Shown piece after piece: positions 15,625 to 42,266 of a stretch of DNA of 64,000 nt. Each line of letters starts with the position of its first letter. Position 1 is the first letter of the stretch. The notes below the pieces were generated by a model. It saw only the letters and a list, made by a program, of their open reading frames with translations, did no database searches and was not told the DNA's origin. The DNA comes from Aurantiochytrium sp. KH105 (lineage: Eukaryota > Sar > Bigyra > Thraustochytrida > Thraustochytriidae): NCBI GenBank assembly GCA_003116975.1, contig BGKB01000017.1, positions 186,001-250,000 of the forward strand, in the 5' to 3' direction. Both the position numbers and the translations under genes were made by a program.

Positions 15625-18600
15625 TTAGGACAAGTCATGCTTTTTCTGAAAATCGGGGTGACTCGGTGTTGAAATTGATTGTTGATAATCTCTTGGTGAT
15701 GTGATCATGAGCTCGGGAAGAATGTCTTTGGCGTTCTCGTCGGCCTCGGTCATAGCCGCGTGACGGCGGCGACGAATGCCGACAGCGGCAAAATCGGAGA
15801 CGGCCACAAATGCACCAGCCATAGGACCCACAAAAAGCGCCAGCGGCACAGCCGGCAACTCGCTGACGTCGCCGGCGACTCGCTTGTGTTGCTCACCTGG
15901 AGTGTCGCAGACTTGGTCACAACCTGCAGAGATTGCGTCGAGTTCGACTCAAGCGCACGCCGCTCCCCGGCCGAGGACGTCCAGGACGGCGTCGAGCATG
16001 TGTCGACCACAGCCGTCACCGTGATCTCCATGGTCGACGTCGTTTCGGTAAACTCGCCAAAGACCCACTCGTTGGGCGTGAAGATGAAGCTGTCCACGTT
16101 GCGCGTCGACATGCTTTGGCAACCTTGGTGGCCCTTATCATCGACCGCAAAGACGGCACCATTCGCAATTGTGAACGCGTTCGAGTTCTCCGCGTAGAAC
16201 GGTGCGCACGTGTTGTCAGAGCTGCCGGCGGCTTCAAAGCGGCAAAAGTGTCCGTCCTCGTACCACGGTGTTTGCACCAGTTGCATCCAGTCCACCTTGT
16301 CCTCGACCGCAAAGTTGCGCCGGTACAGACCGTTCGCCATCGAGACCTCGACGTTCACCACACGCAGCGTCACGGACCCCGTCGGCGGAATGTTCGAGAA
16401 AGCGATGGTCGCTGTGATGGGGTTGTTGAGGTTCGCGCCATCGATGGTGAGGTCCACGGGATAAGTGCCGGTGACGTCCGTCTGCGCAGCAGGAACCGGG
16501 CAGTCCGATGTAAAGACCTTGTCGTTGACGATGGTTGGATCCTTGAGTGAACCCGTCTCGGCAAAGTCAGCGTACGTGAAGGTGGCCTGAACGTCGAGTG
16601 CGCTCAGATAGTCGAAGCTGCACGATGTTGTTTCTGCGCTGACCTCGCGGGCCATGGGCAGACACTCGGTGCTCGTCAGCTCGACGATGCATTCGTAAGT
16701 GCCATTGATCGCAGTCTCGTCGGTACACGAAAAGTCGCCAGGTTCGAGCAGAACGTCGCCCATGGTGGGGTTGGCAAGAATGGTCTTCTCCGTTGGCTCA
16801 ATGGAAGTGACGAGACGGATGGTGTACTTGGTCTTGCCCATGGCCACAACACGGTCGCTGCACGGCTCGAAAGAGTAGTCGGCAATCTTCATGACGAGCT
16901 GATTGACGTTGGCGTCCGACGTGGGCTCGACGCCATTGTCGAGACGAGCGTAAAAGTCAATCGTGGCCTGGTCGTCAGCGAGGCTGGGCTTGGTATCGAT
17001 GTCGAGGTCGCACTCAGCTGGCAAGGTGAAACTGAGGAACTGCTCGACGTGGTAGACAATCTCACTGCCAGACTCGGAGAGCTTGCTTGGGTCCGTGATA
17101 CATGTGCTCAGGCGCTGCCCGAGCTCGGCCGAGGGGATGCTGGCGCTGTACTTGAAGGTCTCTGACACCGGAAGGGTCTCTGTGCACGCTGCGTCGCTGG
17201 CATCGCCGAGCTTGAGCGTCACCGTCGGAGGATAGGGGCAGCTCTCCGAGGTGAAGGTGTTGCGACGAAGCTCGACATAGGTGTAGTACCTGTCGGTATC
17301 TTCTGTGTCGTCGGCGGTGTAGAACACGTCGACGAGAAAGTATGGCTGGTCGCGCTCATCAATCGTGAAGATGTGCACCGGGTGTGGGTAGACTTGGACG
17401 GAGCCAGAGGCCATGCCGAGGTCTTGGAGAAAGTAGACGAACTCGAGATCATCCACCTGGTATTCGTCAGCATTTTGAAAGGTTTCATTGAGGTTGACGA
17501 TGCAGCCGCCGGAGTCATCAACGGCAGCGGTGAGGGTGATCAGCTTGGGCTCGATGGCCTCGCTGCGCGAGCGGAGCACAGCTATGGATTGCGTGCAGCT
17601 GAGCGCTGCAGGTGATGCGTTTGTGTCAGCATCAATAGGCACGAGGCGCATATGGGTGAGGTCAACATCGGCCAGATCATCGACAACGATCTTGTCCCAA
17701 AGCTCGCCATTTCGGTCCGGGCCCAGTCGATCAGCGTCCGCAAGGGTCTCAAAAACGAAGCTGGAGGTGTTGCGAGAATCAAAGACCTCGGCCTCGCAAC
17801 AATCCGTGCAGTGGCAAAAGGTTAGAGAGATGGTACACTCGGCATAAATCGGGTCATCAGCTTCGATTTCAACTGCAGGATCAAAATCGGGCAGGGCGTC
17901 TGAGCCACAAAGTGAGTTCTCTTTGACATTGAGAGAAGTGAGTGATGGAAGAGACGCAAGAGCAGCCGGGATAGAGATGAGCTTGTTGCCAGAAACATTT
18001 AAGCTGACGAGATTCTCGAGGGTTAAAAGAGTGTCACCGGGTAGGTCGAAGAGCTCACTATCGATGAAGTCAAGGGCTGTAAGCGAGCTAGGCAGTGATG
18101 AAGGGAAGGCCGGCTGGCCAATGCACTCGAGACGCAGCGTGTCAGAGGGGACGTTATCGGGGTCGCAGGCCGTGTCGTCACAGTGGCAGTCGTCAATCTC
18201 TGTCGGCTCGGCCGTAAAATTACACAAGTCGAATTCCCCAGTTCCTTCATATGGCCTGTATGACCCGGTGAGGGAGGCAGGAAGAACTGGCTGCGGCCCG
18301 CAGAGAGGAACGTTATCAATGTCTCTGTGCATCGAAATCGTGTGAGCTTTCTTGCACTGCTATTTTCTCACGAAGGACTTACAGTCTGGTCAGACTTGTC
18401 AGGCTACTGAGCGCTTGAGGAAGCTCCGTAAGATCTGTGTCTGCGATGTTCCTGTTCGATCAATTGTGAGTAAGTTGACCACTGTTTTCAATGAGCGAGT
18501 GTGTTGAACGTACAGTGAAGAGAGCTGTGTGAGTGCGGACAGACTTTCGGGAAGAGATATGAGAGGGTTGACATGCAGGTATCTATAACAAGAATCAAAT

Positions 18601-21600
18601 TGTTAGTTCCGTTCCAGCGGTTTGTTCGCGTTAGAGTGTATGCGATATCTTCCTCGACAATTCATGGTGGAAAAAAGTCACTTTGACGTTTCACGTACAA
18701 TTGATGCAGCTTGGTCAAAGCCCCAATCGAAGAGGGTAATTCCGTGAGCTCGTTGTTGTTGATATCTCTGCAGTAAAGGTTTGGGGGAAAGCGAATGTTA
18801 GTGGCAACTCTTTTAGGTCTCGTCAACCATTCGATGACGTTGTCTGGCTTACAGGTAGGCAAGCTTGGAAAGTCCAGAAATGCTCTCGGGGAGGGACGTG
18901 AGCTGGTTGGACCCGATTTGTCTGTTTGCTCGTGTTCAAGTGTAAGCGTCATCTAAAATTCCAGGAGCACGACCAGCTTCGGTCACTTTCACGTACAATT
19001 GATGCAGCTCGGCCAAAGCCCCAATCGAGGAAGGCAATTCCGTGAGCTCGTTGTTGTTGATATCTCTGCAGTAAAGGTTTTGGGAAAAGCGAATGTTAGC
19101 GGCAACTCTTTTAGGTCTCGTCAACCATTCGATGATGTTGTCTGGCTTACAGGTAGGCAAGCTCGGACAGTCCCGAAATACTGCCGGGGAGGGACGTGAG
19201 CTGGTTGTTCCATGTTCCCCTGTTTGCTCGTGTTCAAGTGTAAGCGTCATCTTCTAGAATTCCAGGAGCTTTGGTCACTTTCACGTACAGAAAAGTCAGC
19301 TTGGTCAAAGCCTCGATCGAGGAAGGCAATTCTGTGAGTTTGTTGTTGTCGATGTTTCTGCAGTAAAGGTTTTGGAGAAAGCGAATATTAGTGGCAACAC
19401 TTTTTGGTCTCGTCAACCACCCGATGAGTTCATCTGACTTACAGGTGAGAAAGCTCGGAAAGCCCTGAAATACTGTCGGGGAGGGACGTGAGCATGTTGG
19501 ATGATGAGAAGCTGTTGTTCGCATGCTTGCGTCGTGAGTGTGCTTGTACGTTTCTTGCAAACAAAAAGCACGATTGGCTTTGGTCACTTTCACGTACAAT
19601 TGTTGGAGCTTGGTCAAAGCCCCGATCGAAGAAGGCAACTCTGTGAGCTTGTTGAGACCGATAAACCTGCATTAAAGGTTTTGGAAAAAGCAAATGTTAG
19701 TTGCAATTCTTGTAGGTCTCGTCGATCATTTGATGACTTCATCTGTCTTACAGGAAGGTGAGTTCGGAAAGACCCGAAATGCTCTCAGGGAGGGACGTGA
19801 GCTGATTGATAAAGGATTTCCTGTTTTGCTCGTGTTCAAGTGTCAGTGTCATCTTTCTAATTTTCTAAGAGCACGGCCAGCTTCGACCATTTTAACGTAC
19901 AGGTAAAGCAGCTTGGTCAAAGCCCCAATCGAGGAAGGCAACTCCGTGAGCTTGTTGTTGTAGATGTTTCTGCAGTAAAGGTTTTGGAAAAAGCGAATGT
20001 TAGTGGCAACTCTTTCAGGTCACGTCAACTATTTAATGACATCATCTGACTCACAGTGCGGTAAGTTCGGAAAGCCCAGAAATACTGTCGGGAAGGGACG
20101 TGAGCTGGTTACCGCTGATTTGTCTGTTTTTGTTCGCGTTTTTATAAAAGAGTAAGTGTCATCTTTCCGATCTTCTAGGAGCACGACCAGCTTCGGTCAG
20201 TTTCACGTACAATCTAGTCAGCTTGGTCAAAGCCTCAATCGAAGAGGGCAATCCCGTGAGCTTGTTATTGGGAATGTATCTGCAGTTAAGGTTTCAGAAA
20301 AAGCGAATGTTAGTGGCAACTCTCATAGGTCCCGTCAACTATCCGATGAGATCGTTTGACTTACAGGTCGGTAAGCTCGGATAGTCCGGAAATACTCTCA
20401 GGGAGGGACGTGAGCGGATTGCCGTATGAGAACCTGTGGTGCGCGTGCTTGCGTTCGTGAGTGTGCTTGTACGTTTCTTGCAGACAAAAAGCACGACCAG
20501 CTTCGGTCACTTTCACGTACAATTCTTGGAGCTTGGTCAGAGCCCCGATCGAGGAAGGCAATTCCGTGAGCTTGTTGTTGTAAATTTTTCTGTAGTGAAG
20601 GTTTTGGAAAAAGCAAATGTGAGCGGCAACTCTTTCAGATCTCGTCAAGCACCCGATGAGATCATCTGACTTACAGAGTGGTAAGCTCGGTAAGCCCCGA
20701 AATGCTCTCGGGAAGGGCCGTGAGCTGATTGGAATGTAGATCTCTGTTGTTCGTGTGCTTGTGTTCGTCAGTGTGCTTGTACGTTTCTTGCAGACAAAGA
20801 GCACGACCAGCTCCGGTCACTTTCACGTACAAGTCAGTCAGCTTGGTCAAAGCCCCAATCGAGGAAGGCAACTCCGTGATCTTGTTGTTGTGGATGTTTC
20901 TGCAGTAAAGGTTTTGGAAAGCGAACGTTAGTGGCAACTCTTTTAGGTCTCGTCAACTATCCGATGAGATCATTTGACGTACAGGTCGGTAAGCTCGGAT
21001 AGTCCGGAAATACTCTCAGGGAGGGACGTGAGCAGATTGAACTCTAAGGACCTGTGGTGCGCGTGCTGTTGTTCGTGAGTGTGCTTGTACGTTTCTAGCA
21101 GGCAAAGAGCACGATAGGTCTCGTCAATCACCCGATGAGATCATCTGACTTACAGAGTGGTAAGCTCGGAAAGCCCAGATATACTCTCAGGGAGGGACGT
21201 GAGCAGATTGTTCTGTGAGGACCTGTGGGCGCGTGCTCTTGTTCGTGAGTGTGCTTGTACGCTTCTTGCAGACAAAGAGCACGACCAGCTTCGGTCAGTT
21301 TCACTTACAAGGTGTGCAGCTTGGTCAGAGCCCCGATCGAGGAAGGCAATTCCGTGAGCTTGTTGTTGTGGATTTCTCTGTAGCGAAGGTTTTGGAAAAA
21401 GCAAATGTTAGCGGCGACTTGCATAGGTCTCGTCAATCACCCAATGTGATCATCTGACTTACAGAGTGGTAAGCTCGGATAGTCCGGAAATACTGTCGGG
21501 GAGGGACGTGAGCAGATTGTATGCTAAAGAGCTGTTGTACGCGTGTTTGCGTTCGTGAGTGTGCTTGTACGTTCTTGCAAGCAACGAGTTCGACCAGCGT

Positions 21601-23031
21601 TGGCCACGTTCACGTACAAGTCAGTCAGCTTGGTCAAAGCCCCAATCGAGGAAGGTAATTTTGTAATCTCGTTGCGGAAGATGTATCTTCAGTCAAGGTT
21701 TTGGAAAAAGCGAATGTTAGTGGCAACTCTTTTAGGTCTCGTCAACTATCCGATGAGATCATTTGACTTACAGGTCGGTAAGCTCGGAAAGTCCGGAAAT
21801 ACTTTCAGGGAGGGATGTGAGCAGATTGCGCACTAAGGACCTGTGGTGCGCGTGCTGTTGTTCGTGAGTTTGGTTTCACTATTCTTGCATTCAAAGATTA
21901 TGGCCAGCTTTGGCTACTTTCACGTACAAGTAAGTCAGCTTGGTCAAAGCCCCAAACGAAGAGGGTAACTCCGTGAGCTTGTTGTTATAGATGTATCTGC
22001 AGTAAAGGTTTTGGAAAAAGCGAATGTTAGTGGCAACTCTCTCAGCTCACGACCACCATTCGATGATCTTATCTGACTTACAGGTCGGTCAGCTCGGATA
22101 GTCCGGAAATACTTTCAGGGAGGGACGTGAGCAGATTGTACTGCGAGGACCTGTGGTGCGCGTGCTGTTGTTCGTGAGTGTGCTTGTACGTTTCTTGCAG
22201 ACAAAGAGCACGACCAGCTTCGATCAGTTTCACGTACAATTTCTGGAGCTTGGTCAGAGCCCCGATCGAGGAAGGCAGTTCCGTGAGCTTGTTGCTGCTG
22301 ATATATCTGCAGAAGAGGTTTTGAAAAAACGAATGTTAGTGGCAACACTTTCAGGTCACATCCACCACCCAATGAGATCATTTGACTTACAGGTCGGTCA
22401 GCTCGGATAGTCCGGAAATACTCTCGGGGAGGGCCGTGAGCTGATTGGACTGTAGATCACTGTTGTTCGTGTGCTTGAGTTCGTCAGCGTGCTTGTATGT
22501 TTCTTGCAGACAAAGAGCACGACCAGCTCCGGTCACTTTCACGTACAAGTCAGTCAGCTTGGTCAAAGCCCCAATCGAGGAAGGCAACTCTGTGAGCTCG
22601 TTGTAGTCGACGTGTCTGCAGTCAAGGTTTTAGAAAAAGCGAATGTTAGTGGCAACACTTTTAGATCTCGCCACAGCGATGATCTTGATGCACGTACAGG
22701 GTCTCAAGATTTGTCAGCTGGTCGACATATTCAGAGATAGCCGTCAGCTGATTATACCTCAGATTGCTACAATTATAGATTGGCTGGTCAGTATATCCTG
22801 CCAGCTCCCTGCAACAAAGAAAACTTACAGGTACGTGAGCGAGGTCAAGGAGGAAAGGGCAGGCACGAAGACGTCAGTGTTGCGGTCTTCGTCTTCGGCA
22901 ATACTGGAGCTGCAGGCAGCACGGATCGACGAGCCGTCACAAGGTGAAGGGGTGCAGATGCAACTTGCGCCATTCGTCAAGGCTGAGGCACAAAGAAGGA
23001 GCAGCAGGAGCAGCAAGTGCCGAAGCATCAT
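15625..23031 (-). CDS. Long LRR single-pass membrane protein, 31 exons, 29 one-LRR exons
   Basis: Exons: 23031-22829, 22766-22698, 22615-22547, 22459-22391, 22306-22238, 22150-22082, 21996-21928, 21840-21772, 21686-21618, 21531-21463, 21377-21309, 21222-21154, 21051-20983, 20899-20831, 20743-20675, 20589-20521, 20433-20365, 20279-20211, 20123-20055, 19969-19901, 19820-19752, 19666-19598, 19511-19443, 19357-19289, 19219-19151, 19065-18997, 18921-18853, 18767-18699, 18582-18514, 18451-18383, 18324-15625. Exon 1 gives a signal peptide (MMLRHLLLLLLLLCASALTNG) and a Cys-rich cap. Exons 2-30 are each 69 nt, phase 2, one 23-residue LRR (NKLTELPSSIGALTKL or NxLTSLPESISGLSEL). Exon 31 starts DIDNVPLCG, adds about three intronless LRRs and ~750 residues of unrecognised Cys-containing ectodomain, then TM (PLALFVGPMAGAFVAV), RRRR and a short tail. 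The TM lies in another frame from the ectodomain: a 38-nt GT-AG mini-intron (15896-15859) or a frameshift is needed; unspliced, the frame would stop at 15750. Product about 1621 residues. Probably a surface recognition protein. Confidence 0.82.
18699..22615 (-). repeat. ~310-bp tandem array of paired LRR exons (A+B) with their introns
   Basis: A-type exon starts lie at 22615, 22306, 21996, 21686, 21377, 20899, 20589, 20279, 19969, 19666, 19357, 19065 and 18767, i.e. spacings 309, 310, 310, 309, 478, 310, 310, 310, 303, 309, 292 and 298. Each unit is A exon (69) + intron (usually 86-87) + B exon (69) + intron (85). A exons encode xxNKLTELPSSIGALTKLxxL and B exons NxLTSLPESISGLSELTxL. A exons nearly always end at GTACGT donors, B exons at GTAAGT-type donors. 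Introns are as alike as exons, so the unit spread by unequal crossing-over or conversion. Confidence 0.92.
21052..21153 (-). other. Chimeric intron left by loss of one A-type LRR exon
   Basis: This 102-nt intron joins two B-type exons directly. Its first ~38 nt match the start of the B-to-A introns (GTAAGTCAGATGATCTC) and the rest matches the tail of the A-to-B introns (TCGTGCTCTTTGCCTGC... CACCACAG). One A exon plus about 73 nt of intron is missing compared with two full units (478 instead of ~620 bp). The reading phase is kept. Confidence 0.85.
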
Positions 23032-26409: not shown

Positions 26410-28356
26410 ATGATGCTTCGGCATCTGCTGCTCCTGCTGCTCCTTCTTTGTGCCTCAGCCTTGACGAGTGGCGCAAGTTGCTACTGCTTCCCTTCTTCCC
26501 CTTGTAACGGCTCGACGACTTATGCTTACTGCGGACATCGTGTTGCCGAAGACGAAGACCACAGCACTGACGTTTTCGAGCCTGCCCTTTCCTCCTTGAC
26601 CTCGCTCACGTACCTGTAAGTTTCCTTTGCTGCAGAGAGCTGGCAGGATATACTAACCAATCCGTCTATAAGCGTAGCAATCTCAAGAGCAATGGGCTGA
26701 CGGCTATCGCTGAATCTGTTGGCCAGCTGACAAATCTTCGTGCCCTGTACGTGCATCAAAATCATCGATATGGAGAGTCGCCACTAACATTTGCCTTTCG
26801 AGAATCACCTAATTGCAGAAGCCTCTACGATAACAAGCTTACCGAATTGCCCTCTTCGATTGGGTCTTTGACCAAGCTGACTTCCTTGTACGTGATAGTG
26901 GCCGTAGCTGATGATTCTCCCAGGAGATTAGAAAGATGACACTTACGCTTGAACGCGAGCAAAAACAGATACTTATCCAGCAACCAGCTCACGTCCCTCC
27001 CTGAGAGCATTTCGGGACTTTCCGAACTTACTTACCTGTAAGTTAAATGATGTCATCGAATGGTTGTCGAGACAGAAAACGAGTTGTCACTAATATTCGT
27101 CTTTCGAAAATCACTTCATTGCAGAGGTGTAAGCAGCAACGAGCTCACGGAATTTCCCTCTTCGATTGAAGCTTTGACCAAGCTGACTTCCTTGTACGTG
27201 ATAGTGGCCGTAGCTGATCGTTCTCCCAGGAAATTTGAAAGATGACACTTACGCTTGAACGCGAGCAAAAACAGATACTTATGCAGCAACCCGCTCACGT
27301 CCCTCCCTGAGAGCATCTCGAAACTTTCCGAGCTTATCCGCCTGTAAGTCAGATGATCTCATTGGGTGGTTGACGAGATCGAAAAGAGTTGCCGCTAACA
27401 TTTGCGTATTTATTAAAACCTTCACTACAGAGAAATCTACAACAACAAGCTCACGGAATTACCTTCCTGGATCGGGGCTCTCACCAAGCTCCAAAAATTG
27501 TACGTGAAAGTGACCGAAGCTGGTCGTGCTTTCTGTCTGCATAAAACGTACAAGTACACTCACGAACGCAAGCACGCGCACCACAGGTCCTCACAGTCCA
27601 ACCTGCTTACGTCCCTCCCCGAGAGCATTTCGGGACTTTCCGAACTTCGGGACCTGTAAGTTAAATGATGTCACTGAGATGGCGAGGAAGTAATCGATTA
27701 TACTCGCGCGCCGCTGATAAGGAACTCACACTCCGTTTTATGTTTCAGAGACGTGTGTTACAACCCTCTCACCTCCCTTCCCGAAAGTCTGCCCGCACTC
27801 ACAAAGCTCAGAAATTTGTACGTCCAACACATACACTCGTTTAAATCAGAGATCAATCGTACTCACTGTCCCAATCAATCGAACAGGGACATAGCAGACA
27901 CAGATCTTTCAAAGCTTCCTCAATGGATCACTAAAATGACAAGTCTGACCAGACTGTAAGTTCTTCGCGATAAATTAGCGATGCAAGAAAGCTCACACGA
28001 TTCCGATGCGCAGGGACATTGATAACGTTCCTCTCTGCGGGCCACAGCCAGTTCTTCCTGGCTCCCTCATCGCGCCATACAGACCGTCGTATGAAGGAAC
28101 AGGAGAATTCGACGCGTGTCCAACGCAGTCCCCTACGACCGAGCAGTCCCCTACGACCGAGCCGACAGCGATTAACAATGACGAGTCGTCGGCTACGCCG
28201 CTGGCACTTATCGTGGGTCCTGCCGCTGGTGCGTTTGTGGCTGGTGCGTTTGTGGCCGTCTCCGTAATTGCAGCTGTCGTCCTTCGTCGCCGCCGTCGCG
28301 CGGCCAAGACCGGGGCCGATGAGAACGCCAAAGACACCGTTGTTCCCAGTCTTTGA
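26410..28356 (+). CDS. Short LRR single-pass membrane protein, 11 exons, 9 one-LRR exons
   Basis: Exons: 26410-26615, 26678-26746, 26819-26887, 26969-27037, 27125-27193, 27275-27343, 27431-27499, 27587-27655, 27749-27817, 27887-27955, 28014-28356; all introns phase 2, product 389 residues. Exon 1 encodes a signal peptide (MMLRHLLLLLLLLCASALTSG) and a Cys-rich cap ending DVFEPALSSLTSLTYL, almost identical to the long gene. Nine 69-nt exons each encode one 23-residue LRR in the same A/B alternation. Exon 11 gives the C-cap (DIDNVPLCGPQPVLP), a PTTEQSPTTEP stalk, TM (PLALIVGPAAGAFVAGAFVAV), RRRRR and tail (TGADENAKDTVVPSL). Relative to the long paralogue the ~2.4-kb ectodomain in the last exon is absent. 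ATG chosen because the base upstream aligned codon is GTG in both genes. Likely a surface receptor or adhesion protein without a kinase. Confidence 0.85.
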
Positions 28357-39634: not shown

Positions 39635-39658
39635 TGCGGTTTCCGCGGATCGAACGCA

Positions 39659-39691
<33 letters not shown>

Positions 39692-39707
39692 CCTGAGCTA
39701 AAACCGC
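39635..39707 (-). tRNA. tRNA-Phe (GAA), copy 1
   Basis: Reads 5'-GCGGTTTTAGCTCAGGTGGG on the minus strand and ends GGAAACCGCA; 73 nt with a 7-bp acceptor stem GCGGTTT/AAACCGC, D arm GCTC/GAGC, anticodon loop CTGAAGA (anticodon GAA), variable loop AGGTC and T loop TTCGATC. The A and B box promoters lie inside. No intron. CCA is not encoded. Confidence 0.97.
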
Positions 39708-40170
39708 TGTGCTTCCCGTTGTGTCACTCCAGAGGTCAAAGCCCGACATGGACCCCCCAGAGCGAAATACCAGGATTTGCGGCCACGGACAGCCGCTGGC
39801 AGCGCATTCACGGCACCATATCATACTAACTGTAAAAGGAGGGAGACACAGCAGACCCGGCATTTTGTCCGTCTTTGTCGTCTTCGCTCCACAACGAGAC
39901 CAACTCATGAAAAAAACAAAAACAATAATAAACACGAATCACGCTCTGCAGGTTGAAAATCTCTCTTCCAGGACGAGCGAAAACAAAGACCAAGGCGAGG
40001 CGGGGGAAAGGGAAGGAAGGCTTTACATTGTTGAGGCCGGTAGTGAGCGCAACTTGAAAAGTGCCATTTAGGGAAAGAAATTTTTTTTCGCAAGAACAAG
40101 AGCCGAAAACCAACCGTTCTTTCTCTTTTTGTGTAACGAAAAGGAAAAACAAAAAAAAATATCAACCAAA
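39708..40170. other. Spacer between tRNA-Phe copies 1 and 2
   Basis: 463 bp with no coding gene recognised; AT-rich with poly-A tracts at 40079-40090. Confidence 0.5.
40151..40159 (-). terminator. Pol III T-run terminator of tRNA-Phe copy 2
   Basis: Nine T on the minus strand 11 nt after the tRNA end. Confidence 0.8.
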
Positions 40171-40194
40171 TGCGGTTTCCGCGGATCGAACGCA

Positions 40195-40227
<33 letters not shown>

Positions 40228-40243
40228 CCTGAGCTAAAACCGC
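40171..40243 (-). tRNA. tRNA-Phe (GAA), copy 2
   Basis: Identical in all 73 nt to copies 1 and 3, same strand. The flanking sequences differ, so only the tRNA itself (and the T-run just after it) is shared. Confidence 0.97.
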
Positions 40244-40740
40244 CTTGCTACCGTGCTCTTCGCAAGCAACTCCTCTCTGTTACAGACCCAGCAGTTCGTC
40301 AACTCCTCAAAGCGTCTTGCGCACCACTCGATTTGGGTGTGACAAATTCTGAAATGGGTCTTTAGGTCTGCAGCTGGGGCAAGCTTGTGTTGTGTGCGAG
40401 CAAGACATCCAGAGGTGTCTGGCTGTCGGCCTAGGATGCGCGGAAGCATTCTCGCTTTGATTCACTCGATAATCACTACCGTGGAAGACAAGAAGTTGGC
40501 CCAGCCTCCTTCTCATGCATTGACTGTGAGATCACTTTAAACATTCGATTACATGCTTGGGAGAATAGGAGTGTACATATGCTCGGAGCAAGTGCGCTTT
40601 TTCAATTTTACCATTTCTCTGTCTATGGGAGGAGCTGACAGGTTTCCGTCGCGCAGTCTGAACAGCTTCAAGACGAGATGCTCCAAAGATCCGACAAATC
40701 GTCTCACCGCAGTGTCTCGCTTGCAGAATGTCTTGCTCCT
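40244..40740. other. Spacer, no gene seen
   Basis: About 500 bp between tRNA-Phe copy 2 and the decayed coiled-coil gene. Nothing recognised. Confidence 0.5.
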
Positions 40741-42033
40741 CTAGGTGTCGGTTCTCCATTCAGAGGTCGCATTCTTGAGCTCAAAATGTTTCCTGACTTT
40801 CTTTGCTTGCTCGTTTCGCTCAAGATGTTTCCTGGCTTTCTTTTCTTGCTCGTTTCGCTCAAGATGTTTCCTGGCTTTCTTTTCTTGCTCGTTTCGCTCA
40901 AGATGTTTCCTGGCTTTCTTTTCTTGCTCGTTTCGCTCAAGATGTTTCCTGGCTTTCTTTTCTTGCTCGTTTCGCTCAAGATGATTCCTGGCTTTCTTTT
41001 CTTGCTCGTTTCGCTCAAGATGATTCCTGGCTTTCTTTTCTTGCTCGTTTCGCTCAAGATGTTTCCTGGCTTTCTTTTCTTGCTCGTTTCGCTCAAGATG
41101 TTTCCTGGCTTTCTTTTCTTGCTCGTTTCGCTCAAAATGTTTCCTGGCTTTCTTTTCTTGCTCGTTTCGCTCAAAATGTTCCCTGACTTTCTTTTCTTGC
41201 TCGTTTCGCTCAAGATGTTTCCGGGCTTTCTTTTCTTGCTCGTTTCGCTCAAGATGTTTCCGGGCTTTCTTTTCTTGCTCGTTTCGCTCAAGATGTTTCC
41301 GGGCTTTCTTTTCTTGCTCATTTCGCTCAAAATGTTTCCTGGCTTTCTTTGCTTGCTCGTTTTGCTCAAAATGATTCCTGGCGTTCTTTTCTTGCTCGTT
41401 TCGCTCAAGCTGCACCGCGATTCTTCTCCGGGCGAACGCTTTGCTGCTGTTCGCAGGTCTCGCAAGGTTCTCCACGCGGTTTTTTTAAGGGGCTTGCTGC
41501 AACTTCGAAAAGACGCAGGATCGCAAGCAGCTTTGCTAAGCGCCAAGGAGCTTGCTGTGACTTCGGAAAGACGCAGGATCGTAAGCAGCTTTGTCAAGCG
41601 CGAGCTCGAGCTCAGCTTCTTTTTGCTTGACCGCCCAATACGGTTTTTTCCTTTTTCATCTTTTGGGCTCTCTTGCGCTCGGAAGATGGAAGCGAGTCTT
41701 GCTCTGGCTTCCGCTTTGTGGAGCCCGAGCGAAGAACGTCGCTCTTGTTCTTTCACTGCCACGTCACTATGCAGCTCCCACCATTGGAATTTACCATAAG
41801 ATTAGTCCCACGGCTCAATCATTCTTCTTGCTATCGTGTATGACGTCCTGCGGCCGTTCCTCAGTTTCTCGTTCTTCGGAATTGCTCCGAGCCAGATATC
41901 CCATAGATTCTTGCTCGCAAAGAGCCTAGAATTTTTCTGCGTGTCTTTCATGCTGGCGCAAGCAATCTCTGCACTTCTTTGCACGCAAATCATCATCAAT
42001 CTTCTTCTTCAATTCGCCAATACACCCATGCAT
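40741..42033 (-). pseudogene. Probable decayed coiled-coil protein gene
   Basis: Coding-like, strongly charged translation runs along the minus strand in pieces that change frame or hit stops. Piece 1 (42033-41926) starts ATG and reads MHGCIGELKKKIDDDLRAKK up to an in-frame TAG. Piece 2 continues the same frame (ESMGYLARSNSEERETEERP) to a TGA at 41815. Piece 3 begins at about 41762 (VKEQERRSSLGLHKAEARAR). Piece 4 is in another frame (KQKEAELELALDKAAYDPAS) to TAG near 41543. Piece 5 (41475-40741) reads about sixteen copies of a 13-residue unit ERNEQEKKARKHL and ends at a stop at 40741, but has no ATG. A multi-intron gene is the alternative, yet clear GT-AG pairs were not found. No family recognised. 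Confidence 0.45.
40780..41410 (-). repeat. 39-bp minisatellite, about 16 units
   Basis: Units such as CTCAAGATGTTTCCTGGCTT (plus strand) continuing TCTTTTCTTGCTCGTTTCG repeat every 39 bp with few substitutions. Because 39 is a multiple of 3 and the unit has no stop, several frames stay open on both strands. The minus frame giving ERNEQEKKARKHL is the biologically plausible one. Confidence 0.95.
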
Positions 42034-42178
42034 GAAACCATCCCCATCGACGCATCAGACTTGCCTCGAATCCCTCATTCTTCCTCGCGCCTTTCGCGCG
42101 AAATACGCCAAGACGCCACTCCCTGTCCACCAACGACTTGATCGCTTACAGTTAGGGGGAAGGGGAAAAAAAAAAGAG

Positions 42179-42187
42179 AAAAAAAAA
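42179..42187 (-). terminator. Pol III T-run terminator of tRNA-Phe copy 3
   Basis: Nine T on the minus strand, 6 nt beyond the tRNA 3' end. Confidence 0.8.
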
Positions 42188-42193
42188 CAAACA

Positions 42194-42217
42194 TGCGGTT
42201 TCCGCGGATCGAACGCA

Positions 42218-42250
<33 letters not shown>

Positions 42251-42266
42251 CCTGAGCTAAAACCGC
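42194..42266 (-). tRNA. tRNA-Phe (GAA), copy 3
   Basis: Identical to the other two copies, minus strand, 73 nt. It lies 270 bp upstream of the WDR75 start on the opposite strand and overlaps any upstream extension of that frame, which supports the downstream ATG for WDR75. Confidence 0.97.

Follow-up and report, generated by a model that had tools for sequence, protein, structure and literature searches.

What kind of protein would be encoded by a gene in which exon after exon has the same length and splice phase, and how would such an array be used? The question is raised by gene 1, a minus-strand gene whose coding region runs from 23031/23028 to 15750 of the window, i.e., the whole 64,000-nucleotide (nt) stretch of DNA that was analyzed (G000:C17:186001-250000; contig C17 of a 76-Mb assembly with 367 contigs, the others of which are labeled likewise, such as C58 and C36). 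Its first exon encodes a signal peptide, and its last exon is 2.6 kb long; the 29 internal exons (minus strand, 22766-18383) all measure exactly 69 nt, lie between AG and GT, are in phase 2, and encode one 23-residue leucine-rich repeat (LRR) each, as an earlier note on this DNA had claimed; splice sites are inferred from the sequence throughout. A motif-based detector of 69-nt exons, run on both strands, recovered 29 exons on the minus strand and 8 on the plus strand of the window, and 0 in the 20 mononucleotide shuffles used as the control. The evidence described below makes it fairly probable that gene 1, from a stramenopile whose closest relatives are thraustochytrids, belongs to a germline multigene family encoding LRR recognition proteins, which would be exposed at the surface as type-I membrane proteins.

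The exons had also been called interchangeable, and at the sequence level they are: in all 812 ordered pairings of different exons, the seam is in frame and its codon encodes Leu (768) or Phe (44), so that swapping or skipping of exons preserves both the frame and the repeat. The introns between the 69-nt exons are 62 to 116 nt long, intron 1 is 62 nt, and the intron before the last exon is 58 nt. The end of exon 1 was placed at the GTAAGT donor at 22829, not at 22835, which restores a proper first LRR. The conceptual protein, which has 1591 amino acids (aa) counted from the second ATG, is composed, in order, of a signal peptide (recognized by eye), a Cys-rich cap, the 29 LRRs encoded by the 69-nt exons, an end cap that includes some further LRRs (Pfam LRR_8), ∼650 aa, and a hydrophobic C terminus; the Pfam scan covered the last exon and the first 295 aa, and the stretch between them consists of LRR exons by translation. 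Uninterrupted open reading frames (ORFs) of 988 to 1320 aa within the window fit the description of the genome as intron-poor, on the scale of the window.

Two types of exon alternate along the array, A (consensus LPSSIGALTKL) and B (LPESISGLSEL), and the duplicating unit is therefore an A+B pair of ∼310 nt. The alternation breaks once, at exons 12/13, because the intron between them, intron 12, is chimeric: its first 40 nt resemble the introns that follow B exons (38/40 matching intron 10), and its last 60 nt resemble those that follow A exons (58/60 matching intron 5). Two 310-nt repeat arrays meet close to this intron, and the most economical interpretation would be the loss of an A exon through recombination between two introns.

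The introns split the codon of the first Leu of the variable-strand motif (x22 x23 | L1 x2 L3 x4 x5 N6), and by consensus, the two strand leucines are flanked by residues 22 and 23 from the preceding exon and by residues 2, 4, and 5 from the one that follows. It thus takes two exons to form each presumed binding strand, and a new junction always yields a new composite strand. Residues 2, 4, 5, 22, and 23, whose concave placement is by the LRR consensus only, likely line the concave face and bind ligands. In a sample of 106 A and 96 B exons, these residues had entropies of 2.6 to 3.5 bits; elsewhere the entropy was 1.9 to 2.4 bits at residue 3, 1.6 to 1.8 at residue 7, 1.8 at residue 10 of A, and <1 at the rest. 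Residue 3 of type B is Ser in place of the usual strand leucine in 46/96 repeats.

Between copies within gene 1, a comparison that reuses exons and whose pairs are therefore partly dependent, identity was 72 to 79% in introns, 45 to 49% in variable codons, and 86 to 88% in the remaining codons. In gene 1 comparisons that reuse exons in the same way, the ratio of nonsynonymous to synonymous differences per site (pN/pS) inside the variable codons was 1.20 (A) and 1.30 (B), the bootstrap 95% ranges of variable-site pN over all-site pS were 1.28 to 1.92 (A) and 1.26 to 1.68 (B), and scaffold pN/pS was 0.16 (A) and 0.14 (B). A cleaner test is given by 55 matched exon pairs from five locus pairs, which were compared by counting methods, with no site model. 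Exons without a detected counterpart, namely the last of the 17 on C98 and the first 3 of the 11 on C59, were excluded. In this set, 59/825 nt (7.2%) were changed in variable codons, 139/4189 (3.3%) in introns, and 68/2640 (2.6%) in the scaffold; the difference between variable codons and introns has a Fisher p of 1.8e-6 when sites are taken as independent, and the ratio of nonsynonymous to synonymous changed codons was 39:5 at variable sites versus 28:38 in the scaffold. These counts support diversifying selection overall, acting unevenly among loci.

The third bases of the variable codons of 69-nt exons are mostly C or T, and adenine mutagenesis like that of diversity-generating retroelements was considered because of this. 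Among the changes in variable codons of 54 close exon pairs, which are partly dependent on one another, A is involved in 22/41 first-position and 30/37 second-position cases; the former count argues against an A-only mechanism, the latter leaves a bias, and such mutagenesis is unlikely.

Gene 1 is not alone. Gene 2, located head to head with it on the plus strand (window 26410-28356), has nine 69-nt exons and, from its first ATG, encodes 389 residues reading from a signal peptide through a hydrophobic segment and RRRRR to an 18-aa tail; its C58 counterpart has 21 69-nt exons and gives an uninterrupted 650-aa translation that likewise spans signal peptide to tail. Homologues of exon 1 were found at 27 loci of the assembly (28 matches, two of which are pieces of one), and some of these loci are probably allelic. 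A count with a looser detector, which required open frames and had no shuffle control, was performed on 24 fetched stretches plus the window and gave 304 69-nt exons in 23 genes, some of them read in part, the number of exons per gene ranging from 6 on C220, where N interrupts the array, to 29 in gene 1. Besides C214 and C220, the 23 genes account for 21 of the 27 exon-1 loci, and 5 of the 24 fetched stretches had no exon chain. Three genes (gene 1, gene 2, and C58 gene 2) could be joined into complete genes from one end to the other, and the remaining loci are seen as exon chains. At one locus (L015, G000:C17:374500-384499), two near-identical family genes are inverted, with first exons ∼2.2 kb apart, in a large palindrome. 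Some family loci lie near contig ends; a link with telomeres was considered, and the three end regions checked contained no telomere repeat array, one of them starting with 3336 N.

Some arrays of the family differ between otherwise similar regions. The C17 region is collinear with C58, with identities of 96.8% in the 3′ flank, 83% and lower in the intergenic part, and 88.8% beyond gene 2, and the last exon of gene 1 is 95.5% identical (94% in a separate search). Between these flanks, the gene 2 array has 9 exons on C17 versus 21 on C58, both in stretches without N (matches of 60-64/69 persist in the C-cap and the first three exons), and the gene 1 array has 29 versus at least 20. The best C58 matches of gene 1 exons are 50-59/69 for 26/29 exons, 66 for the N-cap, 63 for one B exon, and 37 for the end cap, whose C58 counterpart is missing from the list of the detector. 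The nearest relative of the 25 A/B exons of gene 1 lies in the same gene for 17 (4 ties) and in the C58 copy alone for 4. In addition, a 1-kb block of C58 gene 1 is 86.9% identical to a gene on C36 versus 77.3% to its own counterpart, C17 gene 1, which points to, without proving, a possible exchange of exons between loci. The proposal of the earlier note that variation arises by recombination is thus strengthened by the chimeric intron, the unequal gene 2 arrays, the divergent gene 1 arrays between similar flanks, and this block. Arrays are kept nearly exon by exon in 4/7 locus pairs (C14/C244, C17c3/C36, C98/C367, and the inverted C17 pair), and C59/C214 keeps 8 matched exons with greater divergence. 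The hypervariable sites, gene 2, and the genome-wide family all go beyond the earlier note, as do the brown-algal and Tetrahymena precedents discussed below.

The last exon of gene 1 may have a different history. The proteins closest to it are two records (P0001 and P0002) from the thraustochytrid Hondaea fermentalgiana, with 94% and 85% identity over 89% and 82% of the query, respectively; in a third Hondaea record (P0123), translated intron stretches are apparent by eye. A search with the tail matched two Hondaea proteins, and in a full-length search, none of the best 120 of 4241 LRR-protein matches carries a thraustochytrid name, most being without an organism name. The ∼650-aa ectodomain had no match above the Pfam cut-off: only LRR families reach or come near it, with weak matches to VIT_2 (E 0.058) and Paralemmin (E 0.33) below it. 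In a PDB search of this exon, the best 60 of 203 matches, which include weak sequence matches to chains of variable lymphocyte receptors (VLRs), all fall in the LRR end, at positions up to 172, and none in the ectodomain. On C28, an intronless ORF (L018:6878-9487) combines the same ectodomain, at 49% identity to the last exon over query residues 44-817, with a signal peptide, a short LRR part, and a membrane segment of its own. Because this paralogue has its own signal peptide, LRRs, and membrane segment, gene 1 looks like an exon-array receptor that may have been fused to a second receptor-type gene.

The mechanism that we propose for the family is as follows. Recombination within the similar introns would add, delete, and swap exons, which might also move between loci, while selection would diversify the binding residues and keep the scaffold fixed. 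The protein would reach the cell surface and there recognize a fast-changing partner, such as microbes, viruses, or other strains, and the signal would probably be relayed through a partner protein, as in plant receptor-like proteins, because only a short tail follows the hydrophobic segment.

Several observations weigh against this reading. In gene 1, the hydrophobic segment and basic run (window 15700-15900, minus strand) are off-frame from the upstream ORF, in C17 and C58 alike, and therefore its protein may be secreted or differently spliced; the hydrophobic segment is in frame in Hondaea P0002. The figure of 27 loci double-counts some genes if the assembly holds both haplotypes, and C17 and C58, instead of being alleles, may have arisen by segment duplication. 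The C58 gene 1 array is broken by a non-LRR insert with a single N (L013:5491-6260), probably an assembly join, and because of this gap its count of 20 is a lower bound. Exon by exon, the 1-kb C58 block is mixed, C36 being closer in 4/7, C17 gene 1 in 2, and 1 being a tie. As for selection, C59/C214 alone supplies 29/59 of the variable-site changes, and C17c3/C36 shows 0/135; without C59/C214, the changes are 30/705 in variable codons, 104/3693 in introns, and 39/2256 in the scaffold, with nonsynonymous to synonymous ratios of 22:4 versus 16:23.

Could the arrays have expanded without any selected role? The two-exon, 310-nt repeat unit is what unequal crossing-over would produce, and that process requires no selection. 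Such neutrality is nevertheless very improbable in view of the scaffold pN/pS of 0.14 to 0.34 and of the excess amino-acid change at variable codons in matched pairs; the open frames of the 304 exons carry little weight here because the detector required them. Somatic construction is a further alternative. The VLRs of lamprey have variable concave-strand residues on a constant LRR scaffold and are assembled somatically from cassettes, and the 69-nt family resembles them in its hypervariable, presumed-concave residues on a constant scaffold; the arrays of C17 and C58 also differ. The VLR-like strategy suggested in the earlier note, in which arrays would be built anew in cells, is, however, extremely improbable because gene 1, gene 2, and C58 gene 2 are whole, ordinary germline genes, not an incomplete gene plus cassettes, no bank of cassettes was apparent in the sequence that was read, and most of the compared locus pairs keep their arrays as described above.

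A variable surface adhesin rather than an immune sensor, which would bind substrates, prey, or kin, or vary to escape predators or viruses, is unlikely but deserves serious consideration. It would accord with the signal peptide, hydrophobic segment, and short tail of gene 2, with the lack of a signaling domain in the scanned parts of gene 1, and with the large ectodomain that gene 1 has in common with an intronless gene possessing its own membrane segment, but the sites that vary most are all on the face expected to bind the ligand, whereas evasion predicts change across the whole exposed surface. Dscam has arrays of interchangeable exons that undergo mutually exclusive splicing, and the 69-nt family has interchangeable exon arrays in common with it. 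That exons are likewise skipped or chosen in splicing, giving many receptor variants per gene and organism, is quite unlikely, even though the exons are frame-neutral, 222/244 donors are GTACGT or GTAAGT, and splice variants of brown-algal LRR exon arrays are described in PMC11378527. Nothing was seen that would enforce a choice, given the short introns and uniform donors (no search for intron pairing was made), and splicing choice is superfluous for explaining selection and array turnover.

Phase-2 LRR exon arrays are already known from brown algae and Tetrahymena; what is new is another lineage and another type of protein. The brown-algal ROCO LRR-exon genes (Zambounis et al. 2012, as cited in PMC11378527) encode ROC-COR GTPases with shuffling 72-bp LRR exons, and their selected concave sites are 14, 16, 18, and 19, all within one exon, according to Teng et al. 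2024 (PMC11378527). They have in common with gene 1 one LRR per phase-2 exon, exon shuffling, and a stramenopile host, and with the 69-nt family diversifying selection at concave sites, supported here by counts and consensus placement; the ROCO sites correspond, in our reading of the consensus, to residues 23, 2, 4, and 5. The two differ in exon length (72 bp versus 69 nt in 29/29 exons), in the ROC-COR GTPase versus the signal peptide and hydrophobic segment (no ROC-COR GTPase domain was found in the Pfam scan of the last exon and first 295 aa of gene 1), in the A/B alternation, a feature of the 69-nt family and not of the ROCO genes as described there, and in the place of the selected sites, which, judging from site numbering, are in one exon there and split by an intron here. 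The same selected sites combined with a different intron place suggest that the two kinds of array originated independently, by convergence rather than common descent. In Tetrahymena, PMC6564038 describes LRR genes with 90-bp exons, mostly under purifying selection, numbering >1,000 in most species, and linked with retrotransposons. They have tandem uniform phase-2 LRR exons in common with the 69-nt family, and the unequal crossing-over proposed for them as a young, expanding family can be likened to the process here; by contrast, the present family has 69-nt rather than 90-bp exons, excess change at variable sites, and tens of loci. The 69-nt gene is therefore outside both kinds by exon length and outside ROCO by domain content.

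Plant LRR receptor-like proteins and kinases have the signal peptide, LRR ectodomain, membrane segment, and short tail in common with the family, and the top PDB sequence match was GSO1, followed by SHOC-2. No kinase domain was found in the Pfam scan of the last exon and first 295 aa of gene 1, and the tail of gene 2 after the basic run is 18 aa. The plant-type repeat has 24 residues, and the 23-residue LPxSI repeat is that of SHOC-2; the repeats here are 23-residue LPxSI, SHOC-2-like and unlike the plant type. A literature search, with most subscription journals outside its scope, found no thraustochytrid description of a 69-nt LRR-exon family by title or abstract; in the passages considered, PMC8917795 remarks solely on LRR protein numbers by Pfam domain, and PMC12221091 does not mention LRR.

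The coordinates of both genes are summarized in Table 1. Elsewhere in the window, three tRNA-Phe (GAA) genes, all with an identical Rfam score, lie within 2.7 kb (39635-42266, minus strand), and a 39-nt tandem repeat with 16 copies and 96% match is located between two of them (40779-41409).

Table 1. Features of genes 1 and 2, in window positions
Feature	Position	Strand	Remark
Gene 1 exon 1: signal peptide, Cys-rich N-cap, first half-LRR	22829..23031	-	ATG 23031 or 23028; donor GTAAGT; homologous exon at 27 loci
Exon 2, N-cap LRR	22698..22766	-	
Exon 3, type A LRR	22547..22615	-	
Exon 4, type B	22391..22459	-	
Exon 5, type A	22238..22306	-	
Exon 6, type B	22082..22150	-	
Exon 7, type A	21928..21996	-	
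Exon 8, type B	21772..21840	-	
Exon 9, type A	21618..21686	-	
Exon 10, type B	21463..21531	-	
Exon 11, type A	21309..21377	-	
Exon 12, type B	21154..21222	-	
Chimeric intron 12, 102 nt	21052..21153	-	near border of two 310-nt arrays
Exon 13, type B	20983..21051	-	
Exon 14, type A	20831..20899	-	
Exon 15, type B	20675..20743	-	
Exon 16, type A	20521..20589	-	
Exon 17, type B by position	20365..20433	-	classed by script as C-cap for its Asn-Pro
Exon 18, type A	20211..20279	-	
Exon 19, type B	20055..20123	-	
Exon 20, type A	19901..19969	-	
Exon 21, type B	19752..19820	-	
Exon 22, type A	19598..19666	-	
Exon 23, type B	19443..19511	-	
Exon 24, type A	19289..19357	-	
Exon 25, type B	19151..19219	-	
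Exon 26, type A	18997..19065	-	
Exon 27, type B	18853..18921	-	
Exon 28, type A	18699..18767	-	
Exon 29, C-cap LRR	18514..18582	-	
Exon 30, end-cap LRR	18383..18451	-	
Last exon: LRR end cap, few more LRRs, ∼650-aa ectodomain, hydrophobic C terminus	15750..18324	-	C58 copy; Hondaea P0001, P0002
Gene 2 exon 1, signal peptide	26410..26615	+	
Gene 2, eight 69-nt phase-2 LRR exons including introns	26678..27817	+	motif detector
Gene 2 ninth 69-nt exon, end cap	27887..27955	+	
Gene 2 last exon: stalk, hydrophobic segment, RRRRR, 18-aa tail	28014..28356	+	

The position of the intron inside the variable strand allows a bolder interpretation because every junction, whether made by splicing or by recombination, is a new composite strand: germline exon exchange, perhaps together with alternative splicing, might generate a combinatorial repertoire by which single cells would achieve allorecognition or anticipatory immunity at their surface, a scenario that we regard as rather unlikely. 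The family in any case adds another lineage in which arrays with one LRR per exon coincide with rapid changes in the same concave positions, and the architecture looks convergent because the intron place and the protein type differ. It would be a tractable single-celled system for studying how protists recognize microbes, viruses, and each other, and it raises the question of whether exon exchange alone can build recognition repertoires.

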